A stretch of 64,000 nt of DNA, taken from the NCBI RefSeq assembly GCF_019972115.1, contig NZ_BPFJ01000001.1, positions 806,001 through 870,000 of the forward strand, written 5' to 3'. Origin of the DNA: Sulfurovum sp. TSL6. GTDB lineage: Bacteria > Campylobacterota > Campylobacteria > Campylobacterales > Sulfurovaceae. Positions 3,266 through 21,031 of this stretch are shown piece after piece; position 1 is the stretch's first letter, and each line of letters opens with the position of its first letter. The position numbers and the translations under genes were made by a program. The notes beneath the pieces were generated by a model, which saw only the letters and a program-made list of their open reading frames with translations, ran no database searches and was not told the DNA's origin.

Positions 3266-4486
3266 TCATAGTTCCTGCAATTTACTCTTCAAAATAATTT
3301 TTCCTGCCTCTACTCCTGGTTGATCATAAGTATTGACATCTATCAATTCTCCCACCAAAGATGTGAGTAATTCATAATAGAATATAAGAGAACCGATATT
3401 TGATTCTGTCACACTTTGAATAGTGATCGTATCTAAAGGGATATTGTTTTGATCCAACAGTGCTTCGATCACAGAATCACATTGCATATTGATCAGTTTT
3501 GAAAAAGGAAGATTATTTAAACTGTCAAGCATTTCCAAATGAGGCAGTGTAATATCAGGTATCGTGGTATTGTCATGAAAATCTTCTATCTTTATAAAGG
3601 TCACCGATTTATCTCTGGTACCTTCCATGATCAGTTGTAAAAAAGAGTGTTGGTCTTCAGGCCCGATAAGTCCGATAGGAGTAAGCCCTACATGAAAGGC
3701 ACTGTGACGCTGATGTTTTCCTAAACTCTCACCCCAGAGTTGCACATACCATTGACAAAAGTATTTCAGTGTTTCTGAATAGGCAAAGATACAGTTAATA
3801 CTGTACTGTGCATGGTTTTTAGCATAATAGACAGCTTTTTCAAGCAACATATCTTGCACATATCCTTTGTTAAAGAATCTCTCTTTGATCAATTGTGCAC
3901 CCGTTAACAGGTCTCTGATATCAATACCGCACAGTGCCAAAGGGACCAAACCTACCGTTGAAAGGACTGAGAACCTACCGCCTACATTATCAGGAAGGTA
4001 GAGTACAGAAGCGTCTATCTCTTTGGCATATTTTTCAAGTGGCGAACCAGGGTCAGTAATAAAAGTATAGAAAGAGGGATCGTTTTGTAAAGAATAAATG
4101 TATTTATAGATAGAAAATGTTTCTACTGTGCTCCCTGATTTTGAGATGACCAAAAAATGTGTCTTATTGACATCAAGTTTGGAAAGGAGTTCAGTAATAT
4201 TGATAGGGTCGGTACTTTCAAAGAAATAGAGTTTTCTAGATAAGTCTTTGACCGGTTTCATGAATTCATAAACTGCCTTGGCCCCCAAAGAACTTCCTCC
4301 TATCCCGATCACCGCAATCGTTTCTATGGTTTCAGGAATCGTACTGCAATACTCAAGTATCGGACCAATATCCTGATCTGGCAAAGCATAATATCCTATA
4401 GACTTTTGTTCTTCAACAATGGCTTCAAATGCCTTTTCTTCTGCTCTTTTACTGATCGAACTAAAATAAAGTTTGTTTTTTATCAT
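3266..4486 (-). CDS. pgi: Glucose-6-phosphate isomerase, short form
   Basis: 406 residues, the length of the short Pgi found in Campylobacter relatives rather than the ~550-residue enterobacterial form. Phosphosugar-binding SIS motifs are visible: GIGGSSLGAKAVYE near 61-74, SKSGSTVET near 118, and the Pgi signature GGRFSVLSTVGLVPLALCG near 168-186. It interconverts glucose-6-P and fructose-6-P. It is the last gene of zwf-pgl-edd-eda-pgi, with 1 bp between eda and its start codon. In this setting it can feed fructose-6-P from gluconeogenesis into glucose-6-P for either glycogen or the Entner-Doudoroff route. Confidence 0.95.
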   Translation of the reverse strand: MIKNKLYFSSISKRAEEKAFEAIVEEQKSIGYYALPDQDIGPILEYCSTIPETIETIAVIGIGGSSLGAKAVYEFMKPVKDLSRKLYFFESTDPINITELLSKLDVNKTHFLVISKSGSTVETFSIYKYIYSLQNDPSFYTFITDPGSPLEKYAKEIDASVLYLPDNVGGRFSVLSTVGLVPLALCGIDIRDLLTGAQLIKERFFNKGYVQDMLLEKAVYYAKNHAQYSINCIFAYSETLKYFCQWYVQLWGESLGKHQRHSAFHVGLTPIGLIGPEDQHSFLQLIMEGTRDKSVTFIKIEDFHDNTTIPDITLPHLEMLDSLNNLPFSKLINMQCDSVIEALLDQNNIPLDTITIQSVTESNIGSLIFYYELLTSLVGELIDVNTYDQPGVEAGKIILKSKLQEL

Positions 4487-4487
4487 C

Positions 4488-5120
4488 TTATTTTTTTCCT
4501 TTTATGACCTGTGTGGCTTCTGTGCAAAGCTTTGTGATCTCTTTAAAATTTTTCTCTTTCATCGCATGTTTAGGGACGATCCAGCTTCCTCCTGCACAGA
4601 GCACATTTTCAAGTGAAAGGAAACCATTGATATTGTCAAGATTAATGCCTCCTGTAGGGCAAAATCTCATGCTGGGAAAAGGTCCGAAAAATGCCTTCAG
4701 AATCTCAATTCCTCCTGCAAGTGTTGCAGGAAAAAGTTTACAATGTTCAAAACCGTTATTTTTCGCAAGCATCACTTCTGAAGCCGTTGCCACGCCAGGA
4801 ATCAATGCAATATTTAATTCTTTTGAAGTCTGCATCAATGCTTCGCTGATACCTGGGCTAAAGACAAACGCTGCGCCATGAGCCACTGCATTTTTAAAAT
4901 CACTTCTATTGAGTACGGTTCCCGCACCGACATGCATCTGTGGCAAAGCCTTTGAAATGATCTCTATAGCCTTCAGACCTGCCTGGGTACGCAGTGTGAT
5001 CTCCATAATGTTAATGCCGCCCTCCAACAATGCTTTTGCAAGAGGGAGTGCATCTTCTTCATTCTCCAGTGCTATGACTGGAACGATAGGTGAAAGTTTC
5101 ATTACTGCTTCAGCCGTCAT
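4488..5120 (-). CDS. eda: KDPG/KHG aldolase
   Basis: 210 residues, usual for Eda. Class I aldolase residues are visible: Glu in IMEITLRT near 38-45, the GAGTV stretch near 64-68, and the Schiff-base lysine in HCKLFPA near 129-135, followed by the phosphate-binding PTGGI. It splits 2-keto-3-deoxy-6-phosphogluconate to pyruvate and glyceraldehyde-3-P. The start at 5120 overlaps the edd stop by 4 bp (ATGA) and has AAGGAG upstream, so translation is coupled to edd. Confidence 0.95.
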   Translation of the reverse strand: MTAEAVMKLSPIVPVIALENEEDALPLAKALLEGGINIMEITLRTQAGLKAIEIISKALPQMHVGAGTVLNRSDFKNAVAHGAAFVFSPGISEALMQTSKELNIALIPGVATASEVMLAKNNGFEHCKLFPATLAGGIEILKAFFGPFPSMRFCPTGGINLDNINGFLSLENVLCAGGSWIVPKHAMKEKNFKEITKLCTEATQVIKGKK

Positions 5121-6946
5121 GCCCGCTCCTTACCAGAGATATCAAATAGACTTGCACCCTCTTCTGCCATACCGACACTCTGACGGACAGAGACAAAAAG
5201 CTCTCTACCAAACCCATGGGTATTGGCACTAAGGTCTGGTCTGTCAATGGTACGTGCCTTTAACTCTGCATCCTCAACCAAAAGCATGATCTCCCCTTTT
5301 TTTGCATCAAAACGGATCATATCCCCGCTTTTAACCTTGGCCAGAAGTCCTCCATCAAGGGCTTCTGGAGAAAAGTGAATGGCAGAAGGCACTTTGCCCG
5401 AGGCACCGGACATACGTCCATCGGTGATAATGGCAACTTTATACCCCTTGTCTTGAAGTGCACCAAGCGGCGGCATCAGTCCGTGTAACTCCGGCATTCC
5501 ATTGGCCTTTGGACCCTGATAACGCACTACAGCAATAAAGTCTTTTTCCAATTCACCTTGATGAAATGCATCCTGTAAAGCTTCCTGAGATTCAAAAACG
5601 ATCGCCGGTGCTTCAATGAAAAACTGTTCGGGCTTCAATGCAGAGGTCTTGATAACACTGCGTCCAAGATTTCCATTGAGGAGTTTAAGCCCTCCCTCTT
5701 CACTGAAAGGTGTTTCTTTGCTCGAAATCACCTCTTTGTTACGTGAAACCTGAGGACCGGATTCAAAGGTCAAAATACTCTCACTCATGTGAGGTTCAAC
5801 AATATAGGCATCCAGCCCTCTGCCTACAATTGTTTCGACATCATTATGCACAAGTCCTGCATCAAGTAGTTGTGAAATGACAACACTCATCCCTCCTGCG
5901 TCTCTAAAATGATTCACATCCGCCTGCCCGTTTGGATACATTTTACAGAGCAGAGGGGTCACCTTTGATATCTCATCAAAGTCATCCCAATTAAGTAGTA
6001 TTCCCGCCGCTCTTGCCATAGCGATAAGATGAATGGTATGATTCGTAGAACCACCTGTTGCCATCAACCCTACGATAGCATTGACAAAACTTTTTTCATC
6101 AATGATATCAGCTATAGGTTTGTAGCTTCCCCTTAACTCTGTCATCGTTAAGATCGTTTTTGCAGCATGTGCAGTCAATGCTTCTCGCAAAGGCGTATTG
6201 GTATTGATAAAAGAGCTGTTTGGAAGTTGCAATCCCATCATCTCAAGCAACATTTGATTGGAGTTTGCCGTACCATAGAATGTACAGGTACCGCTACTGT
6301 GATACGAAGCAGATTCGACTTTGAGCAGCGCATCTTCACTCACCTTGCCTTGGGCAAAATCTTGACGTACTTTTGCTTTTTGTGCATTACTGATACCTGA
6401 AGGCATAGGGCCTGCAGGAACGAAGACTCCAGGAAGATGTCCAAAGGCCAAAGCACCGATCACAAGTCCCGGAACGATCTTATCACACACACCAAGATAA
6501 AGTGCACCATCATAGACATTATGAGAAAGACCTATAGCAGTTCCCATGGCAATATTATCACGACTGAAAAGACTCAACTCCATACCAGGCTGTGATTGGG
6601 TGACACCATCACACATTGCAGGGACCCCACCTGCAACCTGTGCAGTAGCACCCAGATCCATCAAGGTACGTTTTATCAATGGAGGATAGAGTTTATACGG
6701 CTCATGTGCAGAGAGCATATCGTTATAGGCTGTGATAATAGCAATATTAGGACTTTCTAATCCAGCAAGCGATTTTTTTTCACCCTCTTCCATAGGTGCC
6801 ATAGCATGTGCTAAATTACTGCATCCCAGTTTATTACGGTTGACGCCATGTCCTTTTGCTAAAGCAATTCGGTCCAGGTAAATGGTTCTACTCTCTAAAG
6901 AACGTTCACGAATTCTGTCTGTCACTTTTTGAATAACTTCATTCAT
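5117..6946 (-). CDS. edd: 6-phosphogluconate dehydratase
   Basis: 609 residues, full family length for Edd of the IlvD/Edd superfamily. Cysteines expected to hold the Fe-S cluster are visible in PAMCDGVTQSQPGMELS near 153-170 and SGTCTFYGTANSNQM near 218-232. GRMSGASGKVPSAIH is the C-terminal family signature. It dehydrates 6-phosphogluconate to KDPG, the committed Entner-Doudoroff step. Four-bp overlaps with both pgl and eda indicate one transcript. The Fe-S cluster implies oxygen sensitivity, consistent with a microaerobic or anaerobic host. Confidence 0.95.
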   Translation of the reverse strand: MNEVIQKVTDRIRERSLESRTIYLDRIALAKGHGVNRNKLGCSNLAHAMAPMEEGEKKSLAGLESPNIAIITAYNDMLSAHEPYKLYPPLIKRTLMDLGATAQVAGGVPAMCDGVTQSQPGMELSLFSRDNIAMGTAIGLSHNVYDGALYLGVCDKIVPGLVIGALAFGHLPGVFVPAGPMPSGISNAQKAKVRQDFAQGKVSEDALLKVESASYHSSGTCTFYGTANSNQMLLEMMGLQLPNSSFINTNTPLREALTAHAAKTILTMTELRGSYKPIADIIDEKSFVNAIVGLMATGGSTNHTIHLIAMARAAGILLNWDDFDEISKVTPLLCKMYPNGQADVNHFRDAGGMSVVISQLLDAGLVHNDVETIVGRGLDAYIVEPHMSESILTFESGPQVSRNKEVISSKETPFSEEGGLKLLNGNLGRSVIKTSALKPEQFFIEAPAIVFESQEALQDAFHQGELEKDFIAVVRYQGPKANGMPELHGLMPPLGALQDKGYKVAIITDGRMSGASGKVPSAIHFSPEALDGGLLAKVKSGDMIRFDAKKGEIMLLVEDAELKARTIDRPDLSANTHGFGRELFVSVRQSVGMAEEGASLFDISGKERA

Positions 6947-7641
6947 CTGTAAAATACCTCTATCTCTTTAATGTCTTGATTTAATACACTGCGTATAGGC
7001 ATCATATACATATCTTCTCCGGCAATCGCTTCTTCATACACAGCAATCTTCTCATCACCTTCAAAATGGATATAAATATGTTTGGCACCTAAAATGGCCC
7101 AACGGGTTAAACTCATCCTTGTATAAGGTGCTGTTGTCGGTTCTATAGCGATACAAAAGTTTTGATTTTTAAGATCAAAAGCCTCTTCTAGTTTAATATT
7201 CTCCGGGAAAAGAGACGCCGTATGGGCATCAGTTCCCATACCCAAGATGAGTACATCAAAAGGGAAAAGCTTCTCTTTCATCTTTTTTGAACATAGTTTT
7301 TGTGCAGTATAGATATCTGTATCTTCACAATACATCCCTACAAAGTGAGCCTTTGCAGCCTCTTCTTGAAGCAGATATTTTTTGACAAAATGTTCATTGC
7401 TCTCTTCTTTGGAAACATCAACCCATCGTTCATCACAAAGACCTACAGTTACTTTATCCCAATCCAAAACTTCTTTTCTAAGTTTTTCAAATAAAGGTTT
7501 AGGTGTACTTCCCCCTGAAACAAGTAGAGAAGCTTTTCCCTTTTCCTCAATGGCTTTTTGAAGATTTGCCAGTATACTTTGACTTAATGCCTCTATAAGT
7601 GCTTTTTGTTCATTAAAAGCATGTACAGATCTACTCATCAT
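6943..7641 (-). CDS. pgl: 6-phosphogluconolactonase
   Basis: A DevB/Pgl-type protein of about 232 residues with the nagB/RpiA-like fold: LLVSGGSTPKPLFE near 38-51, VGLCDERWV near 67-75 and GMGTDAHTASLFP near 134-146. It hydrolyses 6-phosphogluconolactone. The frame opens at 7656, but the pair of ATGs at 7641/7638 has AGGAG 5 nt upstream, so 7641 is preferred. That start overlaps the zwf stop by 11 bp. It sits between zwf and edd in pathway order. Confidence 0.93.
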   Translation of the reverse strand: MMSRSVHAFNEQKALIEALSQSILANLQKAIEEKGKASLLVSGGSTPKPLFEKLRKEVLDWDKVTVGLCDERWVDVSKEESNEHFVKKYLLQEEAAKAHFVGMYCEDTDIYTAQKLCSKKMKEKLFPFDVLILGMGTDAHTASLFPENIKLEEAFDLKNQNFCIAIEPTTAPYTRMSLTRWAILGAKHIYIHFEGDEKIAVYEEAIAGEDMYMMPIRSVLNQDIKEIEVFYR

Positions 7642-9094
7642 GCCAACTCCTGCCATCTCTAGCGATTAATTGCACTGCAGCACTTGGTCCATCCGTTCCC
7701 GCACTGTAACTTTTCATCGGAACCATATCTGCTGCCCAGCTTTCCAAGATCACATCTGCCCATTTCCATGCTGCTTCCACTTCATCCAAACGCATAAAAA
7801 GTGTCGGATTTGCACGAATCACATCTAAAAGCAAGCGCTCATAGGCATCTGGCTTATGTGCAACATTTAAAGGTGTATTGAGCTCAAGTTCTACAGGTTT
7901 TAACATCATCTGTTCACTGAGACCCGGAATTTTATTCATCAGCTGCAGATGGATACTCTCTTTGGGCTGCAGTGCAATGACCAGTTTATTTTCTGAGATA
8001 CATTTACCTTGATTGGCAAAAATAGAGTGTGGTATACCTTTAAAATGTATCACGATCTCAGAATTTCGACGTCCCATACGTTTACCGCTTCTAAGGTAAA
8101 AAGGTACCCCATTCCAACGCCAATTGTCGATATCTACACGAAGTGCAGCAAAAGTTTCTGTAGTACTTTCTTCCATACCGTCACCCTCACGATAACCCGG
8201 TACAGGCATGCCGTCACTAGAACCCTTCGTGTACTGCGCACGTACTGTTTTCTGTTCAATATCCGCAGGTGACATTCTACGAAGAGAACGGAGTACTTTC
8301 ACCTTCTCATCACGTACACTGTCAGCATCAAGTGAGCAAGGCGGCTCCATCGCTACAAGACAAAGCAACTGCATGAGGTGATTTTGCACCATATCACGCA
8401 TCGCACCATAATCATCGTAATATCCCCAACGTCCTTCAACACCGACACTTTCGGCTACAGTGATCTGTATATGGTCAATATGGTTTGAATTCCACAATGG
8501 CATAAAAAATCTGTTTGAAAAACGTAGCGCCATGATATTTTGTACGGTATCTTTACCCAGATAATGGTCGATACGGTAGATCTGTGATTCTTCAAAATAC
8601 TTCAGTACTTCGACATTGATCACACGTGATGATTCAAGATCTCTTCCTATAGGTTTTTCAAGCACTACCCTGCTTTGTGGTGTGACAAGCTCTAACTTGC
8701 TCATAGACATACAGATCGTACCAAAAAAGTCAGGTGCTGTAGAAAGATAGTTCACTCTTTCTCTTTCTGGATACGCATCCAATAACGTTTTAAGTCCTGT
8801 ATAGCTCTCCACTATATCAAACTCAATGGTCACTACATGAAGTTGTGCTCTAAAATACTCAAATTTCTCCTCTTCAAAAGCATCATCTGATAAAAATTCT
8901 TTCAGTTTGGACTTCACCAGATCACAATGTTCATCATTACTCATAGGTACTCTGGTCGCTGTGATAATACGACTTTTCTCATCCAGATATCCGCTATTGC
9001 TCAAATGATACAGTGCAGGCATCAACTTCCTGAATGCTAGGTCACCATGTCCGCCAAAAATGGTAATATCACATAAACTTTCCATTGTATCCAT
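7631..9094 (-). CDS. zwf: Glucose-6-phosphate 1-dehydrogenase
   Basis: 487 residues, normal for Zwf. The N-terminal dinucleotide loop reads FGGHGDLAFRK near 13-23 instead of the usual GASGDLA. The substrate and catalytic motif RIDHYLGKD near 174-182 is intact. It oxidises glucose-6-P to 6-phosphogluconolactone with NAD(P). The start at 9094 has a GGAAGG site about 10 nt upstream. It heads the zwf-pgl-edd-eda-pgi operon; the 179-bp gap before it, after glk, is AT-rich and probably holds its own promoter, though glk read-through is possible. Confidence 0.96.
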   Translation of the reverse strand: MDTMESLCDITIFGGHGDLAFRKLMPALYHLSNSGYLDEKSRIITATRVPMSNDEHCDLVKSKLKEFLSDDAFEEEKFEYFRAQLHVVTIEFDIVESYTGLKTLLDAYPERERVNYLSTAPDFFGTICMSMSKLELVTPQSRVVLEKPIGRDLESSRVINVEVLKYFEESQIYRIDHYLGKDTVQNIMALRFSNRFFMPLWNSNHIDHIQITVAESVGVEGRWGYYDDYGAMRDMVQNHLMQLLCLVAMEPPCSLDADSVRDEKVKVLRSLRRMSPADIEQKTVRAQYTKGSSDGMPVPGYREGDGMEESTTETFAALRVDIDNWRWNGVPFYLRSGKRMGRRNSEIVIHFKGIPHSIFANQGKCISENKLVIALQPKESIHLQLMNKIPGLSEQMMLKPVELELNTPLNVAHKPDAYERLLLDVIRANPTLFMRLDEVEAAWKWADVILESWAADMVPMKSYSAGTDGPSAAVQLIARDGRSWHDE

Positions 9095-9273
9095 TTGATC
9101 TACCTTCCTTTCACGCTTATCGTAAAATCATCGTTCTATCAAATTCTAGTTATCAACTCATATTTTATTATAACACTTTATTATCTATCAATGATTATAA
9201 CCCAATATGGATCATAAGTAATCATTACTATGCCTATATTTTATGCAATCTGTATTTTAAAACCAAAATATCC

Positions 9274-10257
9274 TTAAAGTCTATCGAATGCAAAATGCGC
9301 AGCGCCCAGTAATGCAGTTTCAGAGTTTAAAGAGATTTTCACCTGCATTGCCTGCAACATTTCATTAAAACGGCCTTTACTTAAAAATCCATTCATAAAA
9401 TGGTTATTGGCAAGTACAGGTAAGATTTTAGGAGCAATACCACCACCAATATATACGCCACCCAATGACATTGTTTTTAAGGCAAGATTTCCCGCCTCAG
9501 CACCATATATCTCTGCAAAAAGTCTAAGTGCTTCCATGCAGAGCGGATTGTGTTCTTTTAAAGCACATTCACTCACCATGGCACTACGGTCTTTTCCTTC
9601 GGGTATATTTAACATCGAGCTCGGCTCTGCTGAAAAACCACTTTCCACTAAATATTCATACAGTGTATAGATACCCGGGCCTGAGAGTATTCTTTCAAAA
9701 CTCACATGTCCCGGATACCGATTACGCATCCACTGCAACAGTGCATCCTGCTGCGGTGTCAAAGGTGCAAAATCACTATGCCCACCTTCAGAACCGATAG
9801 GATGATATGCGGTACCGTCATAATACAACATCGCTTCTCCAAGTCCTGTACCTGCAGCGATCACCGCTCGATTTCCACCCATGAGCCGAGCTTTAGGGTT
9901 GAGATCTACAAATTCATCGTCAGGAAGATACAACATACCATAAGCGGTTGCTTCCAGATCATTCAGGAGCCGTACCTTTTGAATGCCCAGATGTTCCTGC
10001 AAGCCTGATGTCGTAATATCCCAGGGTAAATTAGTCGTACGGCAACGCCCTTCAATTACCGGACCGGCGATACCAAAACAAGCTGCATCTATATGTGGCA
10101 TGGAAGTCTTTTCCTTAAATAATGTGATCACCTCATCGAGCGTGGAAAATTCTCTACTGGGAAAATGATGTTGTGCATGTACACTCAATCTGTTTTCTTT
10201 ATATTTAAAAAGTGCAAGATTCGTTTTTGTACCGCCTATATCTCCTGCCATTATCAT
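9274..10257 (-). CDS. glk: Glucokinase (bacterial Glk type)
   Basis: 327 residues. The N-terminal ATP phosphate-binding motif GDIGGTKTNLALF sits near 5-17, LLNDLEATAYG near 98-108 supplies the catalytic Asp region, and the second ATP loop AAGTGLGEAML is near 133-143. It phosphorylates free glucose to glucose-6-P. GGGAG precedes the ATG. It follows the phosphorylase-kinase-like gene by 17 bp and precedes zwf, so glucose freed by GH57 or GH15-type enzymes could enter the Entner-Doudoroff route directly. No sugar transporter is visible nearby, which favours internal glucan as the source. Confidence 0.93.
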   Translation of the reverse strand: MIMAGDIGGTKTNLALFKYKENRLSVHAQHHFPSREFSTLDEVITLFKEKTSMPHIDAACFGIAGPVIEGRCRTTNLPWDITTSGLQEHLGIQKVRLLNDLEATAYGMLYLPDDEFVDLNPKARLMGGNRAVIAAGTGLGEAMLYYDGTAYHPIGSEGGHSDFAPLTPQQDALLQWMRNRYPGHVSFERILSGPGIYTLYEYLVESGFSAEPSSMLNIPEGKDRSAMVSECALKEHNPLCMEALRLFAEIYGAEAGNLALKTMSLGGVYIGGGIAPKILPVLANNHFMNGFLSKGRFNEMLQAMQVKISLNSETALLGAAHFAFDRL

Positions 10258-10274
10258 ACTAACTCCCTATTCTT

Positions 10275-13200
10275 CTATACTGTAAGATCATGCAAAGCAT
10301 CCTGTGGTGATAACAAAAACATAAAGGCCTCTAAAAATGCTTTGTCTGTTTCTACAGGTGAACGTGTATAAAACGCTTTCCAAGCTTCTGAACGGTGCTC
10401 ATTATAATGCTTTGAAGCACTCTCCTTTTCCCAAGATATGCGTACTGCATGTCCTATGAGTACATCCATAATGAGGTCATCTTCAAGATGCAGGTCGGGG
10501 TTTTCTCTAAATAGTCTTACCAGGCTTTCGATCAGTTCAATATTCAACTGGCGGTAATCAGGGGCATCGATACTTTGTAAAAGTGCATCGATCTTCAAGG
10601 CAAAGCTTCGTTCACCTGCAGTTGATTCCAATGTAAGTTCTGAACCTATCCTGTTTTGAACATTGTATTTATCTCCGATCACCAAGCCGCTGCATTGCCG
10701 TAATAAATACCATATATCCTTATAGAAAACAGAAGAAAACGGACCTATCATACCCCTCTCATATCTCCATTGCGACCAGTCAGTGACTTTGCCAAACTCC
10801 GTAACTGTCGGACCTTGTTTAATTGATTCAAAAGAAGGTGTACCCGAAGCATGTAAATTTTCATGCACGAGAAACAGCGAGACTTCTCTTTTAAATGATT
10901 TTAATACCCTGTGCAAACGGTCATAAATTGCGTGAGGAGCTAAACTAAGCAACCTTTCATAAGCATCGGCCATATGCAGGTTCTCCTCCCTGCTTATCTG
11001 TCCTACAAGTAACTGAATAAAGTACCAAGTACGAATCGTTAGCATATTTTCAAAAAGTTCAGGTTCATTTCTGATCATATATCCAAGATGTAAAATGATC
11101 TCCTGTGTCAAGACACTTTCTGCTGTATTATTACCACAATATTCCATGATCGTTTTAACGATATCACTACTTTCATACGGTTTTGAAAATGTCGCTTTTC
11201 CACTGTATGACCGTCCTACTGCAAGGCGCTTTTGCCGTATCACTATATCAAGCAATACATCTTCAATACGATCATCATATTTTTCTGTAAAATCAGCGAT
11301 ACGCCGTACCAGATTCCACTCATGACACACGGTAGCTAATTCATAAAGATTTTGGGCAAACTGTGACAATGTCACATTTTCATGTTCCACGGAAAATACA
11401 AAATCTGCACCCTTGCGTTGCCACATCTCTTCAAGTGCATAGGTCTTATATAAACGATTTTTTTTACCCAAAAGTATCTCTATCAATCCAGAGTCATCCT
11501 GATCACTAAGAGACTGTATTTCCTCTGGACTCAAAAATGTATGGATTTCAGTTTCCTTCAAACAGATACCCAATCTATTATTATTTGACACAATGTCTGA
11601 AGCTTGCAAGGTAAACCCGTGAATATCTTGCATACGTTCCATACACGCTAGACCCAATAATTTTTCCAATGGGCCTGTCTGAATAGTCACATCGCCACTC
11701 TGCTCTTTTTGTATATCCTCCAATAGTTCAACCAGTGCCTCACGTTCACTATCAGAAAACATCGATTCACGAACAAAGAACGGTATGATAGGATTACCTC
11801 TTGCATCCCACTGCATAGCAAGGAACTTTAATGATGCCCGAAAATGTTCTACTAACAATTGATTATCCGCTGAGAAATAAAATCCATGCGGATTAAAATA
11901 ATAAGGAAGAAAGACTATCTCTTCACCTCCATAGAAGTGAACCCTTGCAGTCGTCATTGTTCTTGCAACTATCCATTCCCTACCGCTTAAAGAAAGTTTT
12001 TCATTTTGACCCAAAAACGTATGAAGCATAGAGAGTTGATCAGCATGTAAGATCCGTACAGGCTTGATCTCTTCGATGGTTTCACTTTCAAAACCAAGAT
12101 CAGCCAATTTTTCTTTAACCGATTCATTTTCAGCGATCACCGGAACCAAAGGTTTGGTACCGAAACTGTGTCCTATACGTTTGTGACGCTCTAAGGGATC
12201 TATATCTTCCGATTCCAAAAGACCATCAAGCATCATATCGGAGAGCATATAAAGACTTTGTGCCCATACCAAAGGTATATTTTCATTGGCAACACGTATT
12301 TGACTTCCAGGATCTTCTTTTTCTGCCTCTATACTTTCTTTGGGAACAATATAGAGTTCAGGTAAAAGCTTCTTCCCATCCTGTTCAACAAAAAGCGGTT
12401 GCAGTTTTTGCTTCCAATGCTTGATCTCTTCTTTCTCATTACGTATCAATGCATCCAGTAGTAAATAGGTGAAAAAAAGAGGCCATTCTGATTCAATATG
12501 TTCAAATTCACGCAACTCTGAGGGTTCATAGTGCAGGCGGCTCGCATCTTCAATACTGCTTTGATGACCATCGAGTAAAAAACGTTTACATCCGTAATTT
12601 CCTGCAAGTTTTTTGATGATCTTATCACGTGTACGTTTGACCAGTTTCGTATCTTCAACCGCATAGGCGGGATAGCCTATAATACTCAGCAATGCGGCAT
12701 CAGTCTCTTTAGAATTGGATTCTCTGGGTAACAGTCCCTGCAACGTGAAGCGAGAACGGGCGATATCACTAGGAACCACATGGATCACAGCTTCATGGTT
12801 TGGCAGATCAGCAAAAAGATTAAAGCCGTCCAAGGCTTCAAGTGCTGCTTTTGCCATACCTACAGAACTACCATTGACTTCTGTATTTCCATGATTGATC
12901 TTATTTCCGCGCTCCCAGATACCATAATCAGGGGTACAGTAAGTATGGCTGATATAGTGCACCATATTTTGTACAAAATCAACTTCATCCATCGTATAGA
13001 TAATACGCAGTCCAGAAGCAATCATTTGCGCGATCATCAAGAGAAAAAGAGAGCTTGCATCCAGTTGCAAATGCCCCCATTCGTCATCTCCTACCACGGC
13101 TAAACCTGTATTTGTACCATACTTCGCATGCAGAGCATCTGTAGGATTATGTGTTTTTTTAAATACTTCGATTCTGTCCGACTGTCTCATCATAGCAGTG

Positions 13201-13472
13201 AGCAGTCCCCTCATCAATTTAACCACACTCTGGCTCAAAAGATAACTACGATGATGGTCAGCATCAAATTTTCTATAGGCAATTGCAAGTCCCCAGACAC
13301 TCAAAATGCTGTAGACATTATCTCTTACCCAGGCATCGGTATAATCCCCATGGGCATTTACCGCTGTACTTGCAGGCAACAAACCGGTGATAGGATCTTG
13401 CCGTGAGAGGATGATCTTGTCAACAACCAGAAAATGTCGATCAAGTGTAGCCTGAAGTGTATCTTGATTCAT
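10275..13472 (-). CDS. Phosphorylase kinase alpha/beta-subunit-like protein (GH15 related)
   Basis: A 1065-residue protein. The ATG at 13472 has AAGGTGAG just upstream, so it is preferred to the in-frame ATGs at 13502 and 13493. The N-terminal third is a GH15-type (alpha/alpha)6 domain. It reads very much like the animal phosphorylase kinase alpha subunit: DPITGLLPAS, DAWVRDNVYSILSVWGLA, SVVKLMRGLL, VVGDDEWGHLQLDA, ASGLRII, GIWERG and SSVGMAKAALEALD. Similarity continues collinearly through ESEWPLFFTYLLLDAL, LLPELYIVP and KLSLSGR to a C-terminal FYKDIWYLLRQCSGL and APDYRQL region, so the whole regulatory-subunit architecture is present. No protein kinase domain is encoded nearby. It could be a glucan-binding or hydrolysing GH15 enzyme, or a regulatory scaffold; it lies between glgP and glk. 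The homology is clear, the function is not. Confidence 0.85.
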   Translation of the reverse strand: MNQDTLQATLDRHFLVVDKIILSRQDPITGLLPASTAVNAHGDYTDAWVRDNVYSILSVWGLAIAYRKFDADHHRSYLLSQSVVKLMRGLLTAMMRQSDRIEVFKKTHNPTDALHAKYGTNTGLAVVGDDEWGHLQLDASSLFLLMIAQMIASGLRIIYTMDEVDFVQNMVHYISHTYCTPDYGIWERGNKINHGNTEVNGSSVGMAKAALEALDGFNLFADLPNHEAVIHVVPSDIARSRFTLQGLLPRESNSKETDAALLSIIGYPAYAVEDTKLVKRTRDKIIKKLAGNYGCKRFLLDGHQSSIEDASRLHYEPSELREFEHIESEWPLFFTYLLLDALIRNEKEEIKHWKQKLQPLFVEQDGKKLLPELYIVPKESIEAEKEDPGSQIRVANENIPLVWAQSLYMLSDMMLDGLLESEDIDPLERHKRIGHSFGTKPLVPVIAENESVKEKLADLGFESETIEEIKPVRILHADQLSMLHTFLGQNEKLSLSGREWIVARTMTTARVHFYGGEEIVFLPYYFNPHGFYFSADNQLLVEHFRASLKFLAMQWDARGNPIIPFFVRESMFSDSEREALVELLEDIQKEQSGDVTIQTGPLEKLLGLACMERMQDIHGFTLQASDIVSNNNRLGICLKETEIHTFLSPEEIQSLSDQDDSGLIEILLGKKNRLYKTYALEEMWQRKGADFVFSVEHENVTLSQFAQNLYELATVCHEWNLVRRIADFTEKYDDRIEDVLLDIVIRQKRLAVGRSYSGKATFSKPYESSDIVKTIMEYCGNNTAESVLTQEIILHLGYMIRNEPELFENMLTIRTWYFIQLLVGQISREENLHMADAYERLLSLAPHAIYDRLHRVLKSFKREVSLFLVHENLHASGTPSFESIKQGPTVTEFGKVTDWSQWRYERGMIGPFSSVFYKDIWYLLRQCSGLVIGDKYNVQNRIGSELTLESTAGERSFALKIDALLQSIDAPDYRQLNIELIESLVRLFRENPDLHLEDDLIMDVLIGHAVRISWEKESASKHYNEHRSEAWKAFYTRSPVETDKAFLEAFMFLLSPQDALHDLTV

Positions 13473-13625
13473 ATATCTCACCTTTTGCAGCATACTATTC
13501 ATGAGTACAGCTTATATAGCTATAGTACATTTTTATTACTTAAGTTAATTATAATCCAATTTTGGAAAAAAGTATAATATTATTGTTTCAATTTTAATCA
13601 GTAGATAGAGAGATTTCTTATATTG

Positions 13626-13820
13626 TCATTTTCTTTGATATTTTTTTATAGCATCCAAATAACCGCTCCATTCTCTAGTTATTGGAAGAAGGTGACGAGC
13701 TTTAAAAAACAATGATACTGCTGTCTGATGCAAGCAAAGTAAATTAGCTACAAATAGACGAATCTCTTGCACTGTCTGCGGCAAATCTATAATAGGAGTT
13801 TGATCCTTTATAATATATTT
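13626..13820 (-). pseudogene. Orphan coding-like frame downstream of glgP, no start codon
   Basis: On the minus strand 64 codons stay open between a TAA at 13821-13823 and the TGA at 13626-13628. The frame reads like protein (for example LPQTVQEIRLFVANLL and ITREWSGYLDAIKKY), with amphipathic helix character. There is no ATG and no ribosome site; only TTG, GTG or ATT could start it. It may be the tail of a gene that has lost its front, or a decayed partner of glgP. The rest of the 13473-13863 gap is AT-rich with nothing else I can name. Confidence 0.3.
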
Positions 13821-13863
13821 TTATCAGTTAAATATGATTGTAGTCATATAATGATTACATACT

Positions 13864-15525
13864 CTACTTCTCAACCTGCCCCTCATCATCATACATCCAC
13901 TTATAGTATTGGTGTGCCATACGAGTTGAATTAAATTCTCGCACTACATCATTCATAGCATATTTCATCATTTTTACCCATTCCTTCATGTCATTATAAT
14001 ACAAGGGTAAAATAACGTTTTCAAGTTTATCCATCATCGCTTTATGATCATAATGATCTTGGTCATGGATAGGTAAAGAAGCATCTGCTGTGGCTATAGA
14101 AAATGCATTTACCCCGTCTTTGGCAAATTCTGGATGCCATCCGTCATTGATAGAAAAATGAATCGAAGCATTCATACTTGCGGACATACCACTTGTACCA
14201 CTAGCTTCACGTGTTACACGTGGTGTATTAAGCCATATATCACTTCCTTGCTTAAGCATTTTAGAAAGGTTTAACTCATAACCAGTCAGCACAGCCATAT
14301 TTTTATAGCCATGGCTCAACTCAATAAGTTCATTAAACATATTGATAGCACCCGCATCATTAGGATAAGGTTTTCCTGCCCATATAATCTGTACAGGATA
14401 TGTTGTGTTATGCATTAGCTTATGAAAACGTTCAAAATCATAAATGAGTAATTCTGGACGTTTGTATTCAACAAAACGACGTGCCCAAACTATGGTTATG
14501 GTATCAGCAGAAAACACTTTTCCTGTTTGATTGGCTACCTCTTCAAAAAGAATTTTTTTAAGGTGTTTTTTACGTGCAATAATTCCATAGTCTTCATGCT
14601 CTTCCAGCGCTCTTAATAATGGTTTATCAACCCAAAATCTACGATTTTGTGCATTGGTAATCCCAATTATCTCACATCGTCCATCAACATTTTTCCACAT
14701 TTTGTTTGCTACTTTTTCATGTATCTTAGATACAGCATTGGCACGTTTAGATGTTTTCAATGCACCAATTGTTAAACAAAATTTTTCATCATAATAATGA
14801 AGTTCATTTTGGATCTCTTTTAGAGAATATCCGTTAAAAAATCCCATTTGGGCTAAAAGATAGACATTGTGTTCTTCATTTCCTGCCTTTTCGGGAGTAT
14901 GTGTCGTAAATACCACATGTTCACGTACCGCTTCAAACGTTTTATATGTATTTAACAACTCAAATACCAACGGTAATGCATGCCCCTCATTCATATGGTA
15001 TATATCGACCTTTTGATTGAGTGATTCGAGTGCTTTCACACCACCAATACCCAAAACAACTTCCTGTGCTATACGTGTTTCTTCATTTGGATCATAAAGT
15101 TTATGTGTGATAGTACGGGAAAGAAAATCATTTTCAGGAATATCTGTTGTGAGTAAAACAAGCGGTGCAGAACCGAACACCCTGCTAGGCATGACCAGTA
15201 CCTTCACTTGGACAGGTTGACCATTGACGTTTACGGTTACTCTAACTTCAGGATCTTCAAGAAAAGAATAGTATTTACGGGTATATTTCAAATCTAAAGT
15301 GCGATCTTTATGCCGATCCTGGTCATAATACCCATAACTCCAAAGTATACCCACACCAACCATATGCTGTTCAAGATCGTATGCACTACGCATATGAGAT
15401 CCTGCCAAAAATCCCAATCCGCCAGAATAAATTTTAAGCGATTGATCTATCGCAAATTCCATTGAGAAATAAGCTACTTTTGTTGCATATTGGCTGTCAA
15501 TTTCATAATGCACCAAATTTTTCAT
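13864..15525 (-). CDS. glgP: Alpha-glucan (glycogen) phosphorylase, short form, atypical PLP site
   Basis: 553 residues, matching the short alpha-glucan phosphorylases of GT35 (the E. coli type is ~800). Typical motifs are AYFSMEFAIDQSL near 18-30, YSGGLGFLAGSH near 33-44, HMNEGHALPLVFELL near 177-191 and VWARRFVEYKRPELLIYDF near 332-350. The cofactor region reads REASGTSGMSASMN near 437-450. Where canonical enzymes carry the PLP-binding lysine after GM, this one has Ser (codon at 14182-14184, read directly). Canonical enzymes release glucose-1-P from glucan. Whether this one is active is open. It is transcribed toward the phosphorylase-kinase-like gene. Confidence 0.82.
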   Translation of the reverse strand: MKNLVHYEIDSQYATKVAYFSMEFAIDQSLKIYSGGLGFLAGSHMRSAYDLEQHMVGVGILWSYGYYDQDRHKDRTLDLKYTRKYYSFLEDPEVRVTVNVNGQPVQVKVLVMPSRVFGSAPLVLLTTDIPENDFLSRTITHKLYDPNEETRIAQEVVLGIGGVKALESLNQKVDIYHMNEGHALPLVFELLNTYKTFEAVREHVVFTTHTPEKAGNEEHNVYLLAQMGFFNGYSLKEIQNELHYYDEKFCLTIGALKTSKRANAVSKIHEKVANKMWKNVDGRCEIIGITNAQNRRFWVDKPLLRALEEHEDYGIIARKKHLKKILFEEVANQTGKVFSADTITIVWARRFVEYKRPELLIYDFERFHKLMHNTTYPVQIIWAGKPYPNDAGAINMFNELIELSHGYKNMAVLTGYELNLSKMLKQGSDIWLNTPRVTREASGTSGMSASMNASIHFSINDGWHPEFAKDGVNAFSIATADASLPIHDQDHYDHKAMMDKLENVILPLYYNDMKEWVKMMKYAMNDVVREFNSTRMAHQYYKWMYDDEGQVEK

Positions 15526-15542
15526 TCTATTTTTTCCTAAAA

Positions 15543-15820
15543 TTAATTATTACCCACAAACACACACCTATCAACAAGGCGAAAACTGTATCCCCATTCA
15601 TTATCATACCATGCAAGTACTTTAACCGTAGCGCCAACAACTACACTGGTCATATCTGGGTACGTAAGTCGAACTGTAGGTCGAGCCTATAAAGTTACTT
15701 GAAATAAGTTTACCTTTTAAATAGCGACATCCTTGGCTGCACCCGTTTTCGTAGCACAAGATGCATTTGAGATAATTGTCTCTCCTTTGTACTCACTAGT
15801 GCAGAACCAAAGTCGAGCTC
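15543..15820 (-). pseudogene. Decayed glyceraldehyde-3-phosphate dehydrogenase (gap) relic
   Basis: On the minus strand this otherwise gene-free stretch shows collinear GAPDH fragments in shifting frames. They are EYKGETIISNASCAT (catalytic Cys region, about 15794-15750), KTGAAKDVA directly after it, [15 protein letters not shown] (around 15680-15715), and [19 protein letters not shown] ending at a TAA at 15543-15545. In an intact ~330-residue GAPDH these segments are far apart, so large internal deletions plus at least one frameshift and stop codons have occurred. The N-terminal NAD domain is missing. The rest of the 15526-15978 gap (15821-15978) is AT-rich upstream sequence of pgm. Confidence 0.85.
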
Positions 15821-15978
15821 ATTCAGATCATAGGATCCCTTTATATTCTTACATTATTATATTTAAGATATAGTATAAAAATGATTACATAATTGTTTCA
15901 TTTTTAATCCAATACCTAATATTTAATCTATTTAAAAAACGCTAAAATAACATAATTAATTCTTCTTAAAGGTAAACA

Positions 15979-17613
15979 ATGAGTCTTCATGCATATGCTG
16001 GAAAACTGGCACCGAAATCAATTCTTGTAAATGTTCCTGAACTCATCAGTGATTACTATACTAAGATTCCCGATACAAAAGACAGAGCCCAGTGTATCAG
16101 CTTCGGAACCTCTGGGCACCGTGGTTCTTCACTGCGTAAAAGCTTTAACGAGATGCATATCCTTGCTGTAACACAAGCCGTCTGTGACTACCGTAAAAAA
16201 GAAGGTATAGAGGGGAGACTCTTTATGGGTATGGATACCCATGCACTCTCATATCCGGCACAGCTCACTGCCATTGAAGTCTTGGCAGCCAATGAGGTCG
16301 ATCTTTATATCGCCGAAGATTTCGGCTATACACCGACACCTGTCATATCACATGCGATTTTGACACACAATGCAAAAGGCGGACCGCTGTGTGACGGTAT
16401 CGTGATCACCCCTTCACATAACCCGCCGACAGATGGAGGGTTTAAATACAATCCGCCGCATGGCGGACCTGCAGATACCGATGTAACGGATTGGATAGAA
16501 GCACGTGCCAATGAAATTTTGGAAAATAACCTGCAAGATGTCAAAAAAATACCCATAGAAGAGTCATTAAAGGCAAAAAATATTACCCAATACGACTATG
16601 TAACGCCTTATGTAGATGATCTTGAAAATGTGATAGATATGAAAGCTATTGCTGCATCGGGTATTCTCATCGGTGCAGATGCTATGGGCGGTTCGGGTAT
16701 GGCATACTATGCTGCCATCAAAGCACGTTACGGACTCAATATGGAGATCTTCCACGATACACTGGATGCTACATTCTCTTTTATGCACTGTGACAAGGAT
16801 GGTAAGATCCGTATGGATTGTTCTTCCCCTTATGCAATGGCCGGACTGATAGAGCTCAAAGAAAAGTATGACATTGCTTTTGGAAACGATACAGATTTTG
16901 ACCGTCATGGCATTGTCACGAAAAGTGTCGGACTTATGAATCCCAATCATTACCTCAGTGTAGCCATCAACTATCTGGCACAAAACCGTCCTGAGTGGAA
17001 CAGTGACCTGGGTATAGGAAAAACACTCGTAAGCAGCTCTATGATAGACCGTGTAGCAAATGACCTAGATAAAAAAGTGATCGAAGTGCCCGTCGGCTTT
17101 AAATGGTTCGTTGATGGTCTTATCAACGGGAGTATCTTCTTCGGAGGAGAAGAGAGTGCCGGTGCAAGCTTTTTGCGTAAAGACGGTTCGGTTTGGAGTA
17201 CCGATAAAGACGGCATTATCCTGACACTTCTGGCCGCTGAAATATTGGCAGTGACAGGGAAAGACCCTGGTGTGCATTATCAAGAGTTAACGGAAAAATT
17301 CGGAGCTCCTATCTACGCCCGTATCGATGCACCTGCGGATGAGCAGCAGAGAAGTATTCTGAAAAATCTCTCCCCTGATGATGTGAAAGAAAAAGAACTT
17401 GGCGGTGAACCTATTGAAGCTATATTGACCAATGCCCCGGGTAATGGAGCTGCCATAGGCGGTCTTAAAGTGGTCGCAAAGAACGGATGGTTTGCACTCC
17501 GACCATCAGGAACGGAGCCGATCTATAAGATCTATGCCGAGAGTTTCATCGATGAAGCACATCTCAAACAGATACAACAAGAAGCACAGGCCATGGTCAG
17601 TAAACTTTTTTAG
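15979..17613 (+). CDS. pgm: Phosphoglucomutase (alpha-D-glucose phosphate specific)
   Basis: 544 residues, the length of the Pgm/PgcA family specific for glucose phosphates. The active-site serine loop is VITPSHNPPTDGGFKYNPP near 142-160. The metal loop is GNDTDFDRHG near 304-313, sugar binding GGEESAGASF near 393-402, and the C-terminal phosphate site is RPSGTEPIYKIY near 513-524. AAAGGT precedes the ATG. It links glucose-6-P with glucose-1-P, the branch point between the Entner-Doudoroff genes on one side and the glycogen operon on the other. It is the only plus-strand gene in the first 30 kb and ends 11 bp from the convergent glgB. Confidence 0.95.
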   Translation: MSLHAYAGKLAPKSILVNVPELISDYYTKIPDTKDRAQCISFGTSGHRGSSLRKSFNEMHILAVTQAVCDYRKKEGIEGRLFMGMDTHALSYPAQLTAIEVLAANEVDLYIAEDFGYTPTPVISHAILTHNAKGGPLCDGIVITPSHNPPTDGGFKYNPPHGGPADTDVTDWIEARANEILENNLQDVKKIPIEESLKAKNITQYDYVTPYVDDLENVIDMKAIAASGILIGADAMGGSGMAYYAAIKARYGLNMEIFHDTLDATFSFMHCDKDGKIRMDCSSPYAMAGLIELKEKYDIAFGNDTDFDRHGIVTKSVGLMNPNHYLSVAINYLAQNRPEWNSDLGIGKTLVSSSMIDRVANDLDKKVIEVPVGFKWFVDGLINGSIFFGGEESAGASFLRKDGSVWSTDKDGIILTLLAAEILAVTGKDPGVHYQELTEKFGAPIYARIDAPADEQQRSILKNLSPDDVKEKELGGEPIEAILTNAPGNGAAIGGLKVVAKNGWFALRPSGTEPIYKIYAESFIDEAHLKQIQQEAQAMVSKLF

Positions 17614-17624: not shown

Positions 17625-19544
17625 TTATATCTTTTTCAAATAGATAACCCCCAAAGGAGGCAGCGTCAGAGTGATCGAATATTCACGTCCGTGCATCGGT
17701 TCTTTGATCGCCTTAAGAGGTCCTGTATTACCGATATTCCACCCCTCATAATAACTTGACTGAGAATTAAATATCTCGACATACTCACCTTCACAAGGCA
17801 CACCGATCTTATAGCTTTCCCATGTCTCATCAGCAAAGTTACATACGACATACACTGTCTCATCGAGAAGATCACACTTACGCATAAAGCTGATACAGTT
17901 ATGCTGATAGTCTCCGTCATCTATCCACTCAAAACCAGCATGTTTTTCATCATATTGGTACAAAGCACGTTCATTACGGTAGAGGAGATTAAGATCACTG
18001 AGCATCTTTTGCAGGTTGGCATGGTAGGGATCTTCAAGAAGATGCCAATCAATACTTTCCTCAAAATTCCACTCAGTATACTGAGCGATATCTCCTCCCA
18101 TAAAAAGAAGTTTTTTACCAGGATGTGCCATCATATAAGCATACATAGTACGCAGATTGGCAAATTTCTGATTGGTGTCACCCGGCATCTTGTTGATCAG
18201 GGAACCTTTCATATGTACCACTTCATCATGACTTAAGGGCAACATAAAATGCTCATCAAAAGCATACCATAGGCTAAAAGTCAGTTGATGGTGATGATGC
18301 TGACGATGTATAGGGTCATAACTCATGTACTTTAGCGTATCATGCATCCATCCCATATTCCATTTAAATCCGAATCCCAGACCACCGATGCTCGTAGGCC
18401 GTGTGACCATCGGCCATGCTGTAGACTCTTCAGCGATCATCATGATATCAGAGAATTCGGCATAGATGCTTTCATTGAGTTTACGTAGAAATGCAACCGC
18501 TTCGAGGTTTTCATTTCCTCCATTGACATTAGGTGTCCACTCCCCCTCTTCTCTGGCATAGTTCAGGTACAGCATGGAGGCGACAGCATCCACACGTATA
18601 CCATCAATGTGATATTTGTCGAGCCAGAACATGGCTGATGAGATAAGAAATGATTTTACTTCATTACGCCCATAGTTAAAGATATAACTTCCCCATTCAG
18701 GATGAAAACCTTTTTGTAGGTCTTCATGTTCATAGAGTGCCGTACCGTCAAAATTGACAAGCCCATGCATATCTACAGCAAAATGTGAAGGTACCCAGTC
18801 CATAATAACACCAAATCCGTTCTCATGCAACACATCGATAAGATACATGAGATCTTGAGGTTCACCAAAACGTGCCGTAGCGGAAAAATAACCTGTGACT
18901 TGATACCCCCATGAACCAAAATAGGGATACTCCGTTAAAGGCATGAACTCCACGTGGGTATAATGCATTTGTTTGAGGTATGCCAGAAGTTCTACGGCCA
19001 ATTCTCTGTAGCTGAGATAGCGGTTCTCTTCTTCAACTTTTCGCTTCCATGAACCAAGGTGCATTTCATAAACACTGACCGGGGCATCATGTGCATTGAC
19101 CTTATGACGTGTTATCATCCACTTTTCATCTTGCCAATCATACCCATCAACAGTCCAGACACGAGAGGCTGACTTAGAAGGCTTCTCAGAGAAAAAAGCA
19201 AAAGGATCACTCTTGTCATGGATAATATTATGAAACTTTGAGACGATATGATACTTATAGGTCAAACCCTGTTCCACACCTTCAATAAAACCTTCCCATA
19301 TACCAGAATCATCTTCCCGTAATTTAAGGGGGTGTGTATCTGTGGCATAGCTGTTAAAATCACCACGTACACTTACACTTTGTGCATTAGGTGCCCAAAC
19401 AGCAAAGTGTACACCATCCAAGCCTTCGTATTGCATTTTATGCGCACCGAATTTTTCATAGAGTTTCGTATGATTTCCCTCTTTAAACAGATAAATATCA
19501 AGATCACTCAATGTTGAGATATTATAATGCATGGCATGTGTCAT
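17625..19544 (-). CDS. glgB: 1,4-alpha-glucan branching enzyme (GH13)
   Basis: 639 residues. An N-terminal CBM48 domain occupies about 30-125 (GVHFAVWAPNAQSVSVRGDFN). The GH13 barrel follows with region I DWVPSHF, region II GIRVDAVASMLY (catalytic Asp), region III IAEES (acid Glu) and region IV LSHDEV. YPYFGSWGYQVTGYFS is typical of GlgB. The enzyme makes alpha-1,6 branches in glycogen. AAGGAG lies 7 nt before the ATG, and the start overlaps the glgA stop by 4 bp. It is the last gene of the glycogen operon. Confidence 0.95.
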   Translation of the reverse strand: MTHAMHYNISTLSDLDIYLFKEGNHTKLYEKFGAHKMQYEGLDGVHFAVWAPNAQSVSVRGDFNSYATDTHPLKLREDDSGIWEGFIEGVEQGLTYKYHIVSKFHNIIHDKSDPFAFFSEKPSKSASRVWTVDGYDWQDEKWMITRHKVNAHDAPVSVYEMHLGSWKRKVEEENRYLSYRELAVELLAYLKQMHYTHVEFMPLTEYPYFGSWGYQVTGYFSATARFGEPQDLMYLIDVLHENGFGVIMDWVPSHFAVDMHGLVNFDGTALYEHEDLQKGFHPEWGSYIFNYGRNEVKSFLISSAMFWLDKYHIDGIRVDAVASMLYLNYAREEGEWTPNVNGGNENLEAVAFLRKLNESIYAEFSDIMMIAEESTAWPMVTRPTSIGGLGFGFKWNMGWMHDTLKYMSYDPIHRQHHHHQLTFSLWYAFDEHFMLPLSHDEVVHMKGSLINKMPGDTNQKFANLRTMYAYMMAHPGKKLLFMGGDIAQYTEWNFEESIDWHLLEDPYHANLQKMLSDLNLLYRNERALYQYDEKHAGFEWIDDGDYQHNCISFMRKCDLLDETVYVVCNFADETWESYKIGVPCEGEYVEIFNSQSSYYEGWNIGNTGPLKAIKEPMHGREYSITLTLPPLGVIYLKKI

Positions 19545-21031
19545 TTGTGCTCCTTATTTTTAAGACGACCCTGAATGATATGACGATATAGGTCTTCATA
19601 ACCATGTGCTGCTTCTTCCCAGTTAAAACGCTTTAACATAGCATTGTGTTGGAGTTGTTTAAACCCCGATTTATCCTGATACCACGTATCGACTGCCCAT
19701 TGTACAGTCCCGATCAATGCCTCAGGTGTTGCATTGTAAAACTTAAATCCTGTGCCGCTTTGATGCACACTGTCATAATTCTCTATAGTATCATCCAGCC
19801 CACCGGTTGCATGTACTATAGGCAATGTTCCATAACGTAAACTATAGATCTGATTGAGTCCGCACGGTTCAAAAAGCGAAGGCATAAGGAACATATCACT
19901 GCCTGCTTCGATCTTATGGGCAAGATCATTGCGATATCCGATATAACAGGCGAATTTTTCAGGATATTTAGATGTAAGCTCTGAGAAGAAGTGCTCTGCC
20001 CACTTCTCTCCAGTACCCAACAGTACTATCTGAATATCCAGTTTCATCAATTCTTCCATCGCGGCTGAGAGCAAGGTAATACCTTTTTGTTCAACCAGAC
20101 GTCCAACCAAACCTATAAGTGGGACTTCGTTTTGCTGTGGAAGATCGAACTCTTTTTGCAATGCAGTTTTACAGAGTGCTTTTCCCGAAAGATCATCAAG
20201 ATCAAAGGTCGCTGGAATGAAGGTATCTACTGTGGGGCTCCACTCTTCATAATCTATCCCATTAAGGATACCGTAGAGTTTATACGCCTTTGCATCGATG
20301 AGCCTGTCCAGTCCCCATCCAAACTCCGGTGTACGTATCTCCTGTGCATATTTCTGACTCACAGCATTGATGGCATCTGCATGTACAATACCGCCTTTAA
20401 GCAGATTGATGCCGTCAAACTCTTCAAGTTCATCTGCTTTAAAGTGCTCCCATCCTACACCCAACACATCCATCGCACCTTTGTAAAATTTACCTTGGTG
20501 CTGCAAATTATGAATAGTTAAAAGTGAGCCTGTGTATTCAAAGTCGGGATCAAAAGCATAGATGGTATTAAGTAAAATAGGTATGGCTGCAGTATGCCAG
20601 TCATTGGCATGAATCACATCAGGTTTAAAATGTAATTTTTTTGCTAGCTGCATGACTGCCTTAGAGAAGAATATAAAGCGATTGTCATTGTCATCATAGC
20701 CTTTCCCATCTTCATCATATAAGCCTTTACGTCCAAAAAAACCTTCATGCTCTATAAAGTAAATAGGTACATCACTTCCAGGCAGTACACCTTCATATAC
20801 ACCTGCCCATGCTTTACCCATACTTCCCATCGGAACGCCCAGGGAACCTTCAAGTGCTTTCAAACCATACTTTTCCTTATCTACAATATAATAACGAGGC
20901 ATCACCACACGCACATCATGTCCCAAGGCTCGAAGTGCTTTGGGAAGTGCTCCAGAGACATCTGCCAAACCGCCACTCTTTGCATAAGGCACCACTTCAG
21001 AAGCTGCCAGTAAGATATTTAATTTATCCAC
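19541..21031 (-). CDS. glgA: Glycogen synthase (GT5), copy 1
   Basis: 496 residues beginning with the GT5 glucan-binding signature AKSGGLADVSGALPKALR near 17-34 (KxGGLAD). The C-terminal half carries the GT-B catalytic motif SLFEPCGLNQIYSLRYGT near 387-404. It transfers glucose from ADP- or UDP-glucose to the glucan non-reducing end. The start codon is GTG (21029-21031) preceded by GAGAG and overlaps the second synthase's stop by 8 bp. It differs clearly from the adjacent paralogue, so this is an old duplication or two separate acquisitions. Confidence 0.93.
   Translation of the reverse strand: MDKLNILLAASEVVPYAKSGGLADVSGALPKALRALGHDVRVVMPRYYIVDKEKYGLKALEGSLGVPMGSMGKAWAGVYEGVLPGSDVPIYFIEHEGFFGRKGLYDEDGKGYDDNDNRFIFFSKAVMQLAKKLHFKPDVIHANDWHTAAIPILLNTIYAFDPDFEYTGSLLTIHNLQHQGKFYKGAMDVLGVGWEHFKADELEEFDGINLLKGGIVHADAINAVSQKYAQEIRTPEFGWGLDRLIDAKAYKLYGILNGIDYEEWSPTVDTFIPATFDLDDLSGKALCKTALQKEFDLPQQNEVPLIGLVGRLVEQKGITLLSAAMEELMKLDIQIVLLGTGEKWAEHFFSELTSKYPEKFACYIGYRNDLAHKIEAGSDMFLMPSLFEPCGLNQIYSLRYGTLPIVHATGGLDDTIENYDSVHQSGTGFKFYNATPEALIGTVQWAVDTWYQDKSGFKQLQHNAMLKRFNWEEAAHGYEDLYRHIIQGRLKNKEHK

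Follow-up and report, generated by a model that had tools for sequence, protein, structure and literature searches.

The 64,000-nucleotide stretch of Sulfurovum sp. TSL6 DNA that was analyzed (the window) encodes a full-length homologue of the alpha and beta subunits of animal phosphorylase kinase (PhK). This protein, PhKL, is probably an active cytoplasmic glucohydrolase of the GH15 type, which releases glucose from glycogen or maltodextrin for the glucokinase and the Entner-Doudoroff genes encoded beside it. The initial annotation had left the choice between a GH15-type glucan enzyme and a regulator of glycogen phosphorylase. The first reading is favored because the catalytic glutamates and the subsite -1 residues are invariant and the glucokinase gene glk is coupled to PhKL, whereas the second lost ground because the position of the phosphorylase gene glgP beside PhKL is not conserved and seven PhKL genomes have no detectable GT35 phosphorylase. 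The PhK-like family is already known; a literature search found no experimental study of its bacterial members. The features discussed are compiled in Table 1, and other loci and genomes are given by L and G numbers.

Two Pfam domains span nearly the whole length of PhKL, i.e., an N-terminal GH15 domain (residues 30-825, PF00723, 4e-80) and the KPBB_C domain. A phmmer search against the PDB retrieved human PhK alpha and beta with E values of 3e-192 and 1e-159, respectively, the matching stretches reached from residue 12-19 to beyond residue 990, and these two proteins were also the only significant matches of a profile built from 64 bacterial homologues. PhKL has the GH15 plus KPBB_C architecture of a PhK alpha/beta-type protein and is colinear with both human subunits over its full length. 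An AlphaFold model (pLDDT 86.7, pTM 0.87, low confidence for the catalytic loop 197-200) could be aligned with both PhK alpha and PhK beta, across about 1080 columns. The global rmsd of about 15 Å was high beside a TM of about 0.7-0.78, and, thus, the domain placement differs from that of PhK or is uncertain. The GH15 part of the model adopts the (alpha/alpha)6 barrel fold of GH15 glucohydrolases, and Foldseek matched it to isomaltose glucohydrolase, which was the best GH15 match, and to Aspergillus glucoamylase (entries 5z3a, 6frv and 1gai). The claim of a full-length PhK homologue was therefore borne out by phmmer, Pfam and the predicted fold, which matches both PhK and GH15, and the similarity is not restricted to the GH15 domain. 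The length of 1065 residues given in the initial annotation is probably also right, because Met11 (position 13472) is at least 90% conserved among the relatives and AAAAGG is found just upstream of it.

Table 1. Positions of PhKL, its predicted functional residues, the neighboring genes and the kinase fusions of the genome (window coordinates unless a locus is named)
Feature	Position	Strand	Remarks
PhK alpha/beta-like GH15 protein (PhKL)	10275..13502	-	1075 aa from first ATG
KPBB_C domain (phosphorylase b kinase C-terminal domain) of PhKL	10302..10991	-	residues 838-1067; PF19292, 3.4e-78
GH15 subsite -1 motif HGDY-TDAW-V-RD of PhKL	13290..13385	-	residues ~40-71: Y54, W58, R60, D61
Glu197 codon of PhKL, in WERG	12912..12914	-	predicted general acid; equivalent to human PhK alpha Glu185
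Glu382 codon of PhKL, in PELY	12357..12359	-	predicted general base; equivalent to human PhK alpha Glu371, Lys in human beta
glk, glucokinase	9274..10257	-	PF02685 5e-102, TIGR00749; 17 bp downstream of PhKL
zwf-like glucose-6-phosphate dehydrogenase	7631..9094	-	based on translation and gene order; related loci have adjacent homologues
pgl, 6-phosphogluconolactonase-like	6943..7656	-	translated sequence and gene order
edd, phosphogluconate dehydratase	5117..6946	-	TIGR01196, 970 bits
eda, KDPG aldolase	4488..5120	-	TIGR01182
pgi, glucose-6-phosphate isomerase	3266..4486	-	NF003016
glgP, short bacterial alpha-glucan phosphorylase	13864..15525	-	553 aa; TIGR02094, 431 bits
PP2C phosphatase-protein kinase fusions elsewhere in the genome	L016:1348-3069 and L017:1339-2982		

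The active site was analyzed next to these global comparisons. The equivalence of the GH15 motifs is based on Pfam, the numbering of human alpha and Foldseek; when the profile of the bacterial family was compared directly with a single canonical GH15 sequence, no usable alignment resulted (probability 0.1%). Alignment placed the two predicted catalytic residues opposite Glu185 and Glu371 of human alpha, which have been named as catalytic (PMC10978961). The catalytic glutamate pair, which the initial annotation had proposed to check, is kept in PhKL, and Glu197 and Glu382 (WE and PE motifs) were invariant in all 93 bacterial sequences, a set that includes near-identical ones (71 are left at 85% dereplication) and whose named relatives were fetched with peptide patterns excluding these two residues. 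Y54, W58, R60 and D61 were invariant in all 92 bacterial sequences covering them, and the same was true for W142, W196, P410, L411 and W413 wherever the column was filled. Subsite -1 of GH15-type structures is lined by Tyr, Trp, Arg and Asp (PMC12446779), and canonical GH15 sequences share Tyr-x3-Trp-x-Arg-Asp (GGYHLIWPRD, GGYHLVWSRD) and Pro-Leu-x-Trp (TPLSW, SPLNW).

The human subunits, which entered the alignment and the tree with their N-terminal parts, keep 88 (alpha) and 68 (beta) of the 99 invariant bacterial positions in residues 20-425. The 11 positions lost in alpha include H51, G52 and Y54 and, beside W413, N406, N408 and L411. The loss of the first three goes with a six-residue deletion that directly precedes the W-x-RD motif; there is no aligned Tyr (Q is found at the Y54 position), and the second motif, NxNxPLxW, carries M, K and H substitutions. 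Human beta has Lys in place of the general base and none of the subsite -1 residues Tyr, Trp and Arg. Human alpha has kept both catalytic glutamates and is yet inactive on maltose, isomaltose and glycogen (PMC10978961), so that intact glutamates alone prove little; the loss of the HGDY loop is a possible cause of this inactivity. The glutamate pair also does not distinguish hydrolysis from transfer, because the GH15-like transglucosidase DDase carries the same pair (PMC12446779).

The gene next upstream of PhKL in the window is glgP, at a gap of 361 bp, and no kinase gene was found adjoining PhKL, both in agreement with the initial annotation. The neighborhood therefore has no counterpart of the associated kinase (gamma) subunit of the PhK holoenzyme. 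Genome-wide there were only two Pkinase matches, both PP2C-kinase fusions on other contigs, and a kinase partner for PhKL was rejected on these grounds. A promoter and terminator scan of positions 9000-16100 yielded nothing beyond chance. The only GH13 members in the genome are GlgB and a 580-aa protein beside a galU-like gene. The galU-like gene, the gene of the 580-aa protein and one for a 409-aa protein without Pfam match, which by eye resembles glucosyl-3-phosphoglycerate synthase, lie just outside the window (L126:1315-5106), and a role in glucosylglycerate metabolism is possible.

The glycogen cluster of the window has several further features. It is headed by an 835-aa protein (27608-30115, minus strand) in which a sugar-1-phosphate nucleotidylyltransferase is fused to a phosphomannomutase/phosphoglucosamine mutase-like part; this fusion is found near PhKL in L028 and L053. 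Two different GT5 glycogen/starch synthases are encoded consecutively, followed by glgB (19541-22466, minus strand), and L031, L045 and L102 have retained both synthases. The cluster also contains a GalT-like nucleotidylyltransferase (22456-23487, minus strand), found beside glgA in L031, L045, L058 and L102, whose substrate might be ADP- or UDP-glucose instead of galactose-1-phosphate.

The coupling of PhKL and glk was conserved. Among loci dereplicated at 85%, glk was directly downstream of PhKL in 29 of the 31 Campylobacterota loci with a downstream gene (one further locus ends right after PhKL and is outside the 31), and the same arrangement was seen in the window and in five gammaproteobacterial loci. 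The gaps were mostly -8 to +24 bp, including seven 4-bp overlaps. In Saccharospirillaceae a different glk (27-29% identity to that of the window) was found upstream of PhKL, two loci had a zwf-pgl-edd-glk-eda-PhKL run, and in L075 MalQ and MalK were downstream of PhKL. The gene order in Marinomonas was PhKL-GlgB-GlgX, in one locus followed by genes for a response regulator and an APH-type phosphotransferase (L095:15507-17841). In cyanobacteria and Paraglaciecola, PhKL was not next to glk or glycogen genes, and its neighbors look unrelated.

The full PhKL architecture was found in Campylobacterota, Gammaproteobacteria, Cyanobacteria, a Leptothrix, a Trueperaceae MAG and a Saprospiraceae MAG; the closest named relatives belong to Sulfurovum. 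All Campylobacterota rows formed one group in a quick tree (support 100), and the distribution in this phylum was patchy (14 of 397 genomes sampled). A strong glk was present in 13 of these 14 genomes (Fisher 8e-11, kinship ignored), in all 13 next to PhKL, and in the fourteenth, G284, a fragmented assembly, no glk was found. The other glk-bearing genomes of the sample mostly belonged to two families (f2 and f3) without PhKL. One genome, G327, has on a 12.6 kb contig a glk of the same type (L111:4360-5340, 64% identical) without PhKL. Outside the phylum sample, 35 of 36 PhKL genomes had a glk match, a few of them a weak one, again with kinship ignored. GH57 and GH77 glucanotransferases also release glucose and could alone explain a nearby glk.

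Three alternatives to an active glucohydrolase acting on glycogen or maltodextrin were considered. PhKL might be an active GH15 enzyme with another bond or outcome, i.e., a trehalase, an isomaltose hydrolase or a retaining transglucosidase. GH15 includes trehalases, glucodextranase and isomaltose glucohydrolase, the DDase-type transglucosidase is related (PMC12446779), and the top structural match within GH15 is an isomaltose glucohydrolase. However, the neighbors are glycogen and maltodextrin genes (GlgB, GlgX, MalQ), and no trehalose gene was among the neighbors scanned, and, thus, this alternative appears unlikely. Its trehalase version was rejected, because the sole sign was a weak NCBIfam match to TreH1 (5e-6, far below the cut-off).

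The tight coupling with glk would also be compatible with a glucan- or glucose-binding pseudo-enzyme, which would control glucokinase or other glycogen enzymes or position them on the granule. The large conserved C-terminal part and the precedent of human PhK, which has inactive alpha and beta subunits and binds acarbose (PMC10978961), point in this direction. We nevertheless regard a pseudo-enzyme as quite improbable, because conservation of the active site is complete over several bacterial phyla and extends to residues missing from the inactive human alpha, and because Marinomonas lineages with PhKL-GlgB-GlgX and without phosphorylase would have no obvious chain-shortening enzyme.

The remaining alternative concerns glgP. 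The conservation of its neighborhood, which the initial annotation had proposed to test, turned out to be nearly absent: of the 30 dereplicated Campylobacterota loci in which PhKL has an upstream gene, two had GlgP directly upstream, namely the window and L028 (16 bp gap). In L018, L034, L044 and L058 GlgP was within a few genes of PhKL, and in several single-contig genomes it was hundreds of kilobases away. A phosphoglycerate kinase gene lies between glgP and PhKL in L018 (871-2076), and a same-sized gene at the matching place in L034 (6464-7678) probably encodes the same enzyme. The closest named relative, Sulfurovum sp. AR (best PhKL segment 92% identical to the window's), has the same cluster minus GlgP. 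When the window is aligned with this strain and with L045, both sides of glgP match around a gap, and pgm adjoins PhKL there. Its absence at this position in L031 and L045 marks glgP as a lineage-specific neighbor of PhKL.

On the genome level, GlgP co-occurred with PhKL in the phylum sample as strongly as glk, though not as a neighbor (14 of 14 PhKL genomes, Fisher 3e-11, kinship ignored). Among the 36 other PhKL genomes, a GT35 phosphorylase was undetected with both models used (PF00343 and TIGR02094) in seven: Saccharospirillum MSK14-1, four of the eight Marinomonas genomes tested, Sulfurovum sp. AR and one small gammaproteobacterial MAG. These are mostly drafts, but the search did detect the enzyme in sibling genomes. 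Because PhKL genomes without phosphorylase exist, it is unlikely, as judged from the sequences, that PhKL controls the phosphorylation of glycogen phosphorylase. In addition, the GlgP of the window begins at the phosphorylase core and appears to be devoid of the N-terminal region that bears the Ser14 site of the animal enzyme. A non-enzymatic partner that binds and regulates phosphorylase, as a forerunner of the regulatory role of PhK, is therefore highly improbable in spite of the few loci with a nearby glgP and was rejected as the main reading, since the adjacency is unconserved, GT35-less genomes exist and an invariant GH15 active site would be left without a reason.

The favored glucohydrolase would cleave glucose off non-reducing ends, either of glycogen or of maltodextrins that phosphorylase and glucanotransferase leave behind; Glu197 would act as the general acid and Glu382 as the general base. 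Its exo-acting GH15 part would carry the extra domains of PhK alpha/beta. The free glucose would be converted to glucose-6-phosphate by Glk, which is probably co-transcribed with PhKL, and would then enter the Entner-Doudoroff route encoded by the adjacent zwf-pgl-edd-eda genes; no phosphorylase would be needed. What we infer from these data is the catalysis, the substrate, the co-transcription and the part played by the C-terminal domains, and the same applies to the linkage: alpha-1,4 is favored, and, since the genome showed no GlgX-type debranching gene, the enzyme may act on alpha-1,6 branch stubs. An archaeal GH15 glucoamylase works in intracellular glycogen catabolism (PMC11046441), and, thus, the principle of GH15 glycogen breakdown is not new.

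A more far-reaching and rather doubtful proposal is that PhKL represents the ancestor of animal PhK alpha/beta in a still living, catalytically active form, as a glycogen glucohydrolase partnered with glucokinase and using D2-D5 for glycogen sensing or docking. In animals it would have become a kinase regulator after deletion of a short loop had silenced the site. The two human sequences paired in the quick tree and were nearest to the cyanobacterial rows by path. However, they sit on long branches and the tree has no outgroup, and therefore no ancestry is claimed for animal PhK. Why PhK alpha has an intact-looking glucoamylase site but no activity was posed as an open question in the structure paper of 2024 (PMC10978961). 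Bacterial PhKL, with its full active site and its coupling to glucokinase, is an expressible protein that could show the original role of the fold, and it points to residues, those of the HGDY loop and of NxNxPLxW, through whose loss human alpha may have become inactive. If the favored reading is true, chemolithotrophic and marine bacteria would have an additional, hydrolytic way of using glycogen that is independent of phosphorylase.

Taken together, PhKL can be placed among several known systems. Both animal PhK alpha (PHKA; 8jfk chain A) and beta (PHKB; 8jfk chain B) share homology and fold with it over the full length, and identity to the bacterial proteins is 40-56% for human alpha and 33-48% for human beta. 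PHKA has the same order of a GH15 domain, D2-D5 and the KPBB_C region and keeps both catalytic glutamates, but PhKL is about 150 residues shorter, has no adjacent kinase partner gene and retains the HGDY and NxNxPLxW motifs, both of which are lost in human alpha. PHKB, in contrast to PhKL, has a Lys in place of the general base and an eroded subsite -1. The GH15 glucohydrolases, i.e., Aspergillus glucoamylase, Thermoanaerobacterium thermosaccharolyticum glucoamylase (1lf6) and Kribbella isomaltose glucohydrolase (5z3a), have the (alpha/alpha)6 domain, the glutamate pair, the Tyr-Trp-Arg-Asp subsite and the PLxW motif in common with PhKL, but identity in the structure alignment is only 13-17%, and they lack the C-terminal PhK domains. 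Amylo-1,6-glucosidase/glycogen debranching enzyme (GH133) has a related helical barrel (7vma, fold search E 0.016) and also frees glucose in glycogen breakdown, but it belongs to a different family and resembles PhKL by fold only.
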